From Candidatus Sodaliphilus limicaballi (GTDB lineage: Bacteria; Bacteroidota; Bacteroidia; Bacteroidales; Muribaculaceae): a stretch of 32,156 nucleotides of DNA. Both the position numbers and the translations under genes were made by a program. Within the stretch, counting starts at the first letter, position 1, and every line of letters starts with the position of its first letter. The notes under the pieces are model-generated. The model was not told the origin of the DNA. It did not search any database and saw only the letters and a program-made list of their open reading frames with translations. The DNA lies in NCBI GenBank assembly GCA_018065815.1, contig JAGHSP010000373.1, positions 1 through 32,156 of the forward strand, given 5' to 3'. Shown piece by piece: positions 2,179 to 4,404 of the stretch.

Positions 2179-3372
2179 TTAATTGTTGTCAATATTTAGC
2201 ACACGCTGGGTTGCTTGCTGTATGTTGCTTGTTGAAGCACAGAGCGAGATGCGGATGAAGCGGTCGCCGTTGGTGCCGAAGATGAAACCAGGCACGACAA
2301 AAACCCTTGCCTTGTCGAGGATGCGTTGAGCGAATGCTTCACTCGACTCGGCGCTGTCAGGGATGCGTCCCCACAGGAAAAGGCCACGCTGCTGTGGATC
2401 GAATGTGCACCCGAGTGCCTGCATCAGTTGCTCGGCAGCCTTGCGACGCTCGGCATAGACCTGGTTGACCTGGGCATACCACTGTTCGTCGCATTGCAGT
2501 GCGCGCACTGCGGCAAGCATCATGGGTTTGTACTGGCCGGAGTCAACGTTGGACTTTACTTTAAGAATCCAGTTGATGAAAGTGGCGTTAGACGTGACCA
2601 TGCCCATGCGCCAACCTGGCATGTTGTGCGACTTGCTGAGGGAGTTCATCTCGATGGCGATGTCCTTTGCGCCTTCGACTTGAAGTATGCTCAATGGGGT
2701 GTCGTTGAGAATGAAGCTATAAGGATTGTCGTTGACGATGACAATGCCGTGACGGTGCCCGAAGTCAACCAAACGCTCAAACAGTGCTTTGCTGGCAGTC
2801 TTGCCAGTGGGCATGTGGGGATAGTTAACCCACATGAGCTTGATGTTGCTGTCCTTGACGATGTTTTCCAGTTGTTCGAAATCGGGCTCCCAATTACTTT
2901 CCTCGGTGAGGTCATAGTAGTGTATACTAGCGCCAGCAAGGCGGCTGACCGATGTATAGGTGGGGTAGCCAGGGTTGGGTACCAGCACGCCGTCGCCGGG
3001 GTTGATGAAGGCGAGGGTGGTGTGCAGGATACCTTCCTTGGAACCTATGAGCGGTAGCAACTCGGTGGCAGGATCAATTTCAACGCCATACCAACGTGAA
3101 TACCACCCGGCGTAGGCTTCGCGCAATGCGGGCAGGCCCACATAGGGCTGGTATCCGTGTGCACCGGGCTGTTGTGCCTCGTGGTACAGGGTGTTTATCA
3201 CCTCGGGGTGCGGCGGCTGGTCGGGACCACCCACGCCAAGGGAAATTATGTTGGCTCCCTGTGCGTTGAGCGCAGCGATTTCTTTGAGTTTGGTAGAGAA
3301 ATAGTATTCCTTGACCTCGCTCACACGACAGGCGGGTGTTATGTTATTGCTTGCTTTCTTCATATTCTCCAA
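2179..3372 (-). CDS. Pyridoxal phosphate-dependent aminotransferase class I/II
   Basis: SLGVGGPDQPP, GSKEGILHTTLAFINPGDGVLVPNPGYPTY, NSLSKSHNMPGWRMG PLP-lysine region. The start may be the internal Met at 3363 (MKKASNN). Confidence 0.92.
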   Translation of the reverse strand: MENMKKASNNITPACRVSEVKEYYFSTKLKEIAALNAQGANIISLGVGGPDQPPHPEVINTLYHEAQQPGAHGYQPYVGLPALREAYAGWYSRWYGVEIDPATELLPLIGSKEGILHTTLAFINPGDGVLVPNPGYPTYTSVSRLAGASIHYYDLTEESNWEPDFEQLENIVKDSNIKLMWVNYPHMPTGKTASKALFERLVDFGHRHGIVIVNDNPYSFILNDTPLSILQVEGAKDIAIEMNSLSKSHNMPGWRMGMVTSNATFINWILKVKSNVDSGQYKPMMLAAVRALQCDEQWYAQVNQVYAERRKAAEQLMQALGCTFDPQQRGLFLWGRIPDSAESSEAFAQRILDKARVFVVPGFIFGTNGDRFIRISLCASTSNIQQATQRVLNIDNN

Positions 3373-4183
3373 GTATTTTGAAGTCGTTGATGAGTGGTTT
3401 CACGGCGTCGATGCTCTGGCGGTAACGTGTGTAGTCGTTGTAGGTGAGGTCGACGTAGAATCGGTATTCCCACTCACGTCCTATGATGGGCAGAGATTGG
3501 ATTTTGGTTAGGTTCATGCCGTAAAACGAGAAGATGGTGAGTACAGCCGAGAGGCTGCCTTGATTGTGTGGCAGGGTGAACTCGATGCTTGCTTTGTCGG
3601 GTTTGCTGCCTCGGGTGAACTCGGGTGCGGTATCGGGGTCGGCGATGATGAGGAAGCGTGTGAAGTTACGCTTGTTGGTCTGTATGTCCTCGGCAAGGAT
3701 ATTGAGCCCGTAGAGTTCGCCAGCATACTTGCCGCACACGGCAGCGTGTCCCATGAGATTGTTGTTGGCAATCATCTCGGCACTGCCAGCGGTGTCGTTG
3801 GTCTCGACGAGTTTCATGCGAGGATGCCTCATGAGAAATTGCTCGCATTGCCGCAACGCCATGGGGTGAGAGTTGACCTCGACAATGTCGTCGATGGTCT
3901 GCCCCGGGAGGGCGACAAGCGAGTGAGAGATGTACTTGCGGAACTCGCCTATGACGCGATGGTTGCTCTGTCGCAGCAGCTCATGGTTTTGCAACAGGCT
4001 GCCAGCTATGGTATTTTCTATGGCCATGATGCCGAGCATGGAAGCGTCGCCACGCAGCACGTCCATCATCTCGTGAAAAGTCTCGCAGGGCACCGTGGTG
4101 ATGTCCTGGCCCTTGAAGTATTCGTGGGCGGCCTCGTCGTGGAAGCATCCAGCCACGCCCTGTATCGCTACTCTGAGTTCCAT
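3344..4183 (-). CDS. pheA: Prephenate dehydratase
   Basis: MELRVAIQGVAGCFHDEAAHEYF..., NDTAGSAEM, ACT-like GSLSAVLTIFSFYGMNLTKIQSLPI...EYRFYVDL. The track start at 4216 lies inside a terminator hairpin, so ATG 4183 is preferred. Confidence 0.93.
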   Translation of the reverse strand: MELRVAIQGVAGCFHDEAAHEYFKGQDITTVPCETFHEMMDVLRGDASMLGIMAIENTIAGSLLQNHELLRQSNHRVIGEFRKYISHSLVALPGQTIDDIVEVNSHPMALRQCEQFLMRHPRMKLVETNDTAGSAEMIANNNLMGHAAVCGKYAGELYGLNILAEDIQTNKRNFTRFLIIADPDTAPEFTRGSKPDKASIEFTLPHNQGSLSAVLTIFSFYGMNLTKIQSLPIIGREWEYRFYVDLTYNDYTRYRQSIDAVKPLINDFKILGEYEESKQ

Positions 4184-4194
4184 ATATTGTCCAT

Positions 4195-4223
4195 AAAAAA
4201 TCCCGTCACTGTTCATGGCGGGA
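4195..4223 (-). terminator. Intrinsic terminator / attenuator in the pheA operon leader
   Basis: Minus strand: (AG)TCCCG-CCATGAACAGTGA-CGGGA-TTTTTT, 12 nt upstream of the preferred pheA ATG. Confidence 0.82.
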
Positions 4224-4277
4224 CTCGTTATCTTTGTTAATCATCTAATTCTTGAAAAGTAGATTTAATTCATCAAT

Positions 4278-4355
4278 TTAACTCAATACTGATTCCGCCT
4301 TTATTGTGTTAGAATAAAAGTAAAAATAATAGTAATATGAATAAAATCGAGTCAT
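4278..4355 (-). CDS. Phe/Tyr-rich leader peptide (MTRFYSYYYYFYFYSNTIKAESVLS)
   Basis: ATG at 4355-4353, stop TAA at 4280-4278. Residues 4-14 are F Y S Y Y Y Y F Y F Y. Sits between a promoter and an intrinsic terminator upstream of pheA. Confidence 0.85.
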   Translation of the reverse strand: MTRFYSYYYYFYFYSNTIKAESVLS

Positions 4356-4372
4356 ATAATCTTATTTATGCT

Positions 4373-4404
4373 GCAAACTTACCAATAAATATTGAAAATT
4401 GCAA
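4373..4404 (-). promoter_or_regulatory. Bacteroidota-type promoter for the aromatic amino acid operon
   Basis: Minus strand: TTG (4404-4402) and TAAGTTTGC (4381-4373), separated by C plus 19 nt. Matches the TTTG / TAnnTTTG consensus; ATG of the leader peptide is about 18 nt downstream. Confidence 0.72.

Follow-up and report, generated by a model that had tools for sequence, protein, structure and literature searches.

A predicted tyrosine- and phenylalanine-sensing transcription attenuator upstream of pheA in the class Bacteroidia

Described attenuators and their relation to the pheA leader

The closest described system is the pheL-pheA attenuator of Escherichia coli, in which a Phe-rich leader peptide and alternative 2:3 and 3:4 stems are located before the gene for prephenate dehydratase. 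Other enteric attenuators respond to more than one amino acid, with one leader serving several products of a shared pathway, as in thr (Thr/Ile) and ilvGMEDA (Ile/Val/Leu). The locus described here lies in a 32,156-nucleotide stretch of DNA from Candidatus Sodaliphilus limicaballi (the window). It resembles pheL-pheA in that its leader has many codons for the end-product amino acid, its stems are alternative, and prephenate dehydratase lies downstream. It differs in that the leader combines Phe with Tyr, whereas pheL holds Phe only, and in that the operon also makes Tyr and contains a DAHP synthase. The promoter is moreover of the Bacteroidota type, and the locus has no match in Rfam. As proposed for the present leader, the thr and ilvGMEDA attenuators sense several products through one leader, but the Phe/Tyr combination is different, and to our knowledge no leader of this combination has been described. 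A comparative survey of amino acid attenuation across bacteria by Lopatovskaya et al. (2010; doi 10.1134/S0026893310010164) may include Bacteroidetes cases and possibly an earlier prediction of this leader.

In 2010, leader-peptide attenuation was, to the knowledge of one group, unshown outside Proteobacteria and Actinobacteria before their own Firmicutes case (PMC2965389). Within the phylum of the window, the Bacteroid-trp RNA (RF01692) is a candidate cis-regulatory RNA of Bacteroidetes that is linked to tryptophan by its name (PMC2864571); it differs from the present element in amino acid and gene, and its Rfam model matches neither the window nor the other loci searched. Transcriptomics of Flavobacterium psychrophilum revealed a conserved 5′ element upstream of pheA, present in other genera and without an Rfam match, and separately found clues to leader peptides at amino acid operons (PMC9723704). 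For the pheA element, the main text of that report mentions neither a leader sequence nor Tyr/Phe sensing and describes no distribution past the family level; the element is probably a flavobacterial instance of the attenuator described below. A literature search, with most subscription papers outside its reach, retrieved no described Phe/Tyr leader and no account of its distribution in the phylum. The first-pass annotation of this DNA had known of no characterized example in the lineage; this stands for the Phe/Tyr pair and does not extend to attenuators in general, which are known in the phylum from RF01692 and, as far as the main text of the F. psychrophilum report goes, from PMC9723704. 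The mechanism class is known, and the Phe/Tyr class appears to be undescribed.

No Rfam family, including Phe_leader, Trp_leader, Bacteroid-trp, and T-box, reached its gathering cut-off in the window or in 30 further loci, and the best of the weak scores look like chance (Trp_leader, 12.3 bits versus a cut-off of 41). A T-box, a riboswitch, and a known Rfam leader were discarded as candidates for want of an Rfam match.

Anatomy of the pheA leader region

The operon is encoded on the minus strand and is composed of four genes, as follows: pheA, prephenate dehydratase (3344 to 4183, with the ATG at 4183; PF00800, E value of 8.4e-53); a class I/II aminotransferase (2179 to 3372; PF00155, E value of 1.6e-62); a DAHP synthase fused to chorismate mutase (1083 to 2192; PF00793 and PF01817); and tyrA, prephenate dehydrogenase (301 to 1083; PF02153, E value of 2.7e-9). 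The Pfam domains of all four bear out the earlier statement that the genes downstream of the leader make exactly Phe and Tyr. On the 3′ side of tyrA, a strong GC hairpin of the form CCCCC...GGGGG followed by a T run was read from the sequence (232 to 196, minus strand) and is likely the operon terminator. The closest named relatives of this pheA belong to the Muribaculaceae, the best match being that of Candidatus Sodaliphilus fimicaballi, with 90% identity. In the genus of the window, pheA was matched in only 14 of 101 genomes, and hisG and trpE are likewise rare among the members searched. The window's genome has kept all three genes, and their rarity in the genus suggests widespread loss of amino acid synthesis there.

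Direct reading of the minus strand in the gap between pheA and marC shows a leader peptide ORF of 25 codons plus stop (MTRFYSYYYYFYFYSNTIKAESVLS) at positions 4355 to 4278, and homologous F/Y-rich ORFs are found in other genomes. Residues F4 to Y14 comprise 10 aromatics in 11 positions (7 Tyr and 3 Phe), encoded by the putative sensor codons at 4346 to 4314, the last of which is TAT at 4316 to 4314. The ORF is preceded by a Bacteroidota-type promoter (4404 to 4374, minus strand), consisting of TTG (4404 to 4402), 20 nt, and TAAGTTTG (4381 to 4374), from which we infer a transcription start near 4368. Of 147 homologous leaders, 116 have the motif TAnnTTTG in the 60 nt 5′ of their start; the number expected from shuffles is 9.7.

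An intrinsic terminator (4226 to 4195, minus strand) is situated between the leader ORF and the ATG of pheA. The folded hairpin spans 4226 to 4198 with −12.4 kcal/mol, and its core is formed by TCCCG (4223 to 4219), a 13-nt segment, and CGGGA (4205 to 4201), followed by six T residues (4200 to 4195). A simple consensus scan for terminators did not list it, presumably because the loop exceeds the limit of that scan. The leader ORF with its position and composition, the promoter-like element, and the terminator directly before pheA had all been proposed in the first-pass annotation, and each was located as described there. An additional ATG at 4216 (minus strand), within the terminator loop, is in the frame of pheA and would give 11 extra residues.

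The remaining segments are arranged as alternative pairing partners on the same strand. Region 3 (GAGTCCCGCC, 4226 to 4217) is the 5′ arm common to the terminator and the antiterminator. Region 2 (4299 to 4279) holds the antiterminator arm GGCGGAATC (4299 to 4291), which starts 14 nt past the last aromatic codon and overlaps the 3′ arm (4295 to 4279) of a 1:2 hairpin. Region 1 (4354 to 4338), the 5′ arm of this hairpin, pairs with 4295 to 4279. The 1:2 hairpin had been missed previously and completes a classical four-segment attenuator. The complementarity between GGCGGAATC and GAGTCCCGCC had already been noticed; its positions are confirmed and the pairing covaries in relatives, but the window's own 2:3 pairing, at −11.7 kcal/mol, is modest when compared with shuffles (p = 0.10) and among the weaker ones of the set. 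The case draws its strength from the relatives.

Very probably, the segment from 4404 to 4195 (minus strand) governs the pheA-aminotransferase-DAHP synthase/chorismate mutase-tyrA operon by ribosome-mediated transcription attenuation, with charged tRNA-Tyr and tRNA-Phe as the signals sensed. In this scheme, RNA polymerase would begin at approximately 4368, and a ribosome would begin translation of the 25-codon leader. With Tyr-tRNA or Phe-tRNA in short supply, the ribosome would stall in the Y/F run and open the 1:2 hairpin, leaving region 2 (GGCGGAATC) free just past its leading edge. Region 2 would then pair with the emerging region 3 (GAGTCCCGCC), no terminator would form, and starvation would lead to transcription of the operon. 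When both charged tRNAs are plentiful, the ribosome would reach the stop and cover region 2, so that 3:4 could pair and transcription would end prematurely near 4195. If the leader is left untranslated, the 1:2 hairpin would hold region 2 and termination would again be favored. This scheme has a kinetic dependence, in that 2:3 would have to form before region 4 is synthesized. The sequence features by which an attenuator is recognized are present at this locus: a short ORF rich in end-product codons ahead of the first gene, an intrinsic terminator between this ORF and pheA, an antiterminator exclusive with the terminator and kept by covariation, a 1:2 pause or protector hairpin, and a geometry in which a stalled ribosome is predicted to free region 2 and a terminating ribosome to cover it.

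Conservation, pairing, and spacing across Bacteroidia

Of 81 related loci, 59 have a Tyr/Phe-rich leader in front of pheA; the set is composed of the window and 80 genome-contig loci that are mostly labelled as Muribaculaceae or Bacteroidales MAGs, with Muribaculaceae MAGs in the majority. In a wider set, where PF00800 served to locate pheA, where a leader required at least 6 F/Y in 12, and where order and class names were derived from kinship labels relative to the window, such a leader is present in 60 of 65 further loci of the order Bacteroidales and, for the other orders of the class Bacteroidia, in 28 of 32; beyond the class, none of 16 loci has one. The typical leader in the 81-locus set begins MTRFYAYYFFFYFYF..., and that of Duncaniella muris DSM 103720 (L084) is MKRFYAYSYFYYFYFDKK. 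In close relatives aligned to the window, most differences within the run are synonymous T/C changes or Phe/Tyr or Ser/Phe swaps, and AAAGGCGG of region 2 is conserved in all six.

The loci without a leader in the 81-locus set mostly have pheA close behind another gene, for example one that ends like methionine synthase (L050, L068, L070, L075, and L082) or hisS (L090), these names being judged from the protein ends. Since pheA adjoins another gene in most of these loci, the leader went together with the intergenic region. Four others (L024, L025, L042, and L047) have a gap 5′ of pheA yet carry no leader, the leader of L055 is degenerate, and four loci of the set end at a contig edge within 130 nt of pheA. 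Judged from these sequences, the predicted attenuator is a class-wide feature of Bacteroidia and no local oddity, and most Bacteroidia that retain the pathway carry the putative leader device.

A hairpin below −7 kcal/mol with a T run is found behind 126 of 147 homologous leaders. Among the 123 leaders with a good terminator, the 2:3 pairing has a mean of −15.6 kcal/mol, compared with −7.4 for shuffled sequences and −10.3 for foreign partners. Own arms pair better than foreign arms in each taxonomic group (p values for the groups of 4e-9, 3e-10, and 9e-8, which count related sequences as independent), with −16.1 versus −12.3 in the related-locus set, −15.1 versus −9.7 in the other Bacteroidales, and −15.5 versus −9.8 in the other orders of the class. 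In terminators where GCCTC, TCCTG, or TCTCG replaces TCCCG, region 2 is changed to match. Region 1 lies at the start of the leader; its partner comprises region 2 and bases 3′ of region 2, and in the same 123 leaders this 1:2 pairing amounts to −13.3 kcal/mol, versus −8.8 when shuffled (p = 9e-21, with related sequences again counted as independent) and −9.2 with a foreign region 1. The 1:2 hairpin is weaker in a few loci.

Across 123 leaders, the start of the antiterminator arm lies a median of 12 nt beyond the last aromatic codon, with a standard deviation of 2.7, whereas measured from the stop codon the standard deviation of the same start is 10.7. This spacing, tight to the aromatic codon and loose to the stop, is as ribosome stalling predicts. 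An unbiased scan of the whole leader places 98.4% of the best 2:3 partners between 3 and 22 nt past the last aromatic codon. With the last aromatic codon in the A site, and assuming the usual footprint, the leading edge of the ribosome would lie about 10 nt beyond that codon. In the nascent transcript, 9.1 pairs of 2:3 are expected when the ribosome occupies the last aromatic codon versus 0.7 when it is at the stop, the latter figure being partly by construction, as covered bases are masked and cannot pair. In the full transcript at equilibrium, the terminator wins at every ribosome position (mean pair probability of 0.83 when stalled and 0.93 at the stop). Thermodynamic switching on the full transcript was discarded, as it fails to discriminate between ribosome positions; since equilibrium favors the terminator in all states, switching has to depend on kinetics, as it does in known attenuators. 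Many truncated transcripts still fold 2:3 when no ribosome is present, so the role of the 1:2 hairpin may vary between leaders.

The first-pass annotation had read the region as a ribosome-mediated attenuator in which a ribosome reaching the stop covers the antiterminator arm, and had named the pheA upstream regions of relatives as the place to look for a conserved Y/F run and covarying stems. The run and the 2:3 covariation were both found there. In 88% of leaders, a ribosome at the stop is predicted to mask half or more of the initial 8 nt of region 2. In silico, the attenuator reading draws further support from the 1:2 covariation, the terminator, and the spacing and stop placement.

Other origins of the same arrangement carry much less weight. 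The ORF could encode a functional small hydrophobic protein, with the terminator ending an independent small transcript, a reading in line with the MTRFYAY start conserved in the Muribaculaceae-set loci and with the trp leader peptide of Sinorhizobium, which is described as acting in trans (PMC7298713). However, the residues past the run vary freely, the length ranges from 10 to 42, and the conserved non-aromatic codons fall in region 1, the pairing partner of region 2. The fixed spacing from codon to arm and the 2:3 covariation are likewise unexpected for a protein gene, and this origin is regarded as very improbable. An even smaller chance is given to a T-box, riboswitch, or protein-bound attenuator driving the same terminator, with the Y/F ORF incidental: a terminator and an antiterminator do not by themselves reveal the sensor, but the spacing is locked to the aromatic codons, and no Rfam match at gathering score was obtained in the window or the 30 loci.

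A chance origin, in which T-rich DNA yields Y/F codons next to an unrelated hairpin, has some footing in the T-rich intergenic region of the window, approximately 1% of whose shuffles reach 7 to 8 F/Y per 12; the best of 3,000 dinucleotide shuffles gave 8 per 12, once. Elsewhere in the DNA of the surveyed loci, 1.18 Mb counted strand-specifically, there is a single ATG mini-ORF with at least 7 F/Y per 12 residues. This corresponds to an expectation of about 0.0003 per 330-nt region, whereas more than 140 upstream regions carry a leader, and the stems covary. The 3.16-Mb draft genome, of which the window is contig 41, contains three exact 8-codon F/Y runs, one of which is the window leader. The second (contig C129) lies inside a longer open frame that does not resemble a leader, and the third (contig C297) is at a contig edge and precedes an unrelated gene; there is thus no second leader copy among these runs. 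The background count, the shuffles, and the conservation rule out a chance Y/F run, to which only a vanishingly small probability is assigned.

Amino acids sensed and other leaders in the lineage

Both Phe and Tyr are present in 121 of 123 leaders, and the last four sensor codons of 45 Muribaculaceae-set leaders are predominantly Tyr-Phe-Tyr-Phe. Nearly all mixed leaders precede operons with DAHP synthase/chorismate mutase, usually also with tyrA, and four Phe-dominated leaders (L097, L101, L167, and L189) precede a pheA that has no other pathway genes within 6 kb. Without DAHP synthase the median Tyr fraction is 0.07, and with it 0.43 (p = 5e-4), a correlation that rests on four loci chosen as Phe-rich. 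The first 19 loci had suggested the idea, and, in line with expectation, none of the following 60 had a pheA-only operon. Two exceptions, L111 and L098, have Phe-rich leaders although DAHP synthase and tyrA are nearby. The presence of tyrA alone does not separate Tyr content significantly (p = 0.15), and tyrA was dropped as a predictor, only the absence of DAHP synthase/chorismate mutase being significant.

A genuine attenuator could also sense mainly one amino acid and tolerate the other aromatic codons, which are one base apart. A stall at the last few codons alone would free region 2, the identity of F and Y drifts along the run, and some leaders hold 6 to 7 Phe and zero Tyr. Single sensing is nevertheless rather unlikely given the near-universal co-occurrence of the two residues, the predominant Tyr-Phe-Tyr-Phe order of the last four codons in the Muribaculaceae set, and the coincidence of Tyr-poor leaders with a lone pheA. 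The dual sensing of Phe and Tyr that the first-pass annotation had suggested is supported by the first and last of these observations. Of the 78 leaders from outside the Muribaculaceae set, 29 contain Trp codons (for example, L096, L122, L187, and L195), perhaps owing to the DAHP synthase of the operon, with which the common route to all three aromatics begins.

We consider it likely that a dual Tyr/Phe attenuator, hitherto uncatalogued, is ancestral to the class Bacteroidia and the standard control of Phe/Tyr operons there, that its Tyr content tracks the shared-pathway genes, and that its persistence implies working transcription-translation coupling. Bacteroidota mostly initiate translation without Shine-Dalgarno sites, and uncoupled transcription has reportedly been demonstrated in Bacillus subtilis. 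Since attenuation requires a ribosome close behind RNA polymerase, the element would be a ready reporter of coupling in Bacteroidota. It would provide the Phe/Tyr pathway with a regulator in a bacterial group that is dominant in gut, soil, and marine habitats and whose regulation of amino acid synthesis is little studied, and more than 100 natural variants are supplied, with directly comparable spacing and stems.

A wider set of leaders is indicated in the same lineage, with His-rich and Trp-rich leaders before hisG and trpE. In the genome of the window, no Trp leader is evident before trpE, which seems to have another gene close upstream; mini-ORFs with WWW are located 5′ of trpE in several other Bacteroidales (L247, L249, L250, L251, and L252). 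A His pattern search of the window's genome retrieved mostly His-rich proteins or antisense frames. In this genome, a His-rich mini-ORF (MTLYTAHHHHRHHHCL) lies approximately 340 nt 5′ of the start of the HisG domain (L240, contig C309); a hairpin that holds a matching GGGAGGCTG copy comes after it. Most of 12 relatives likewise have a His-rich leader before hisG.
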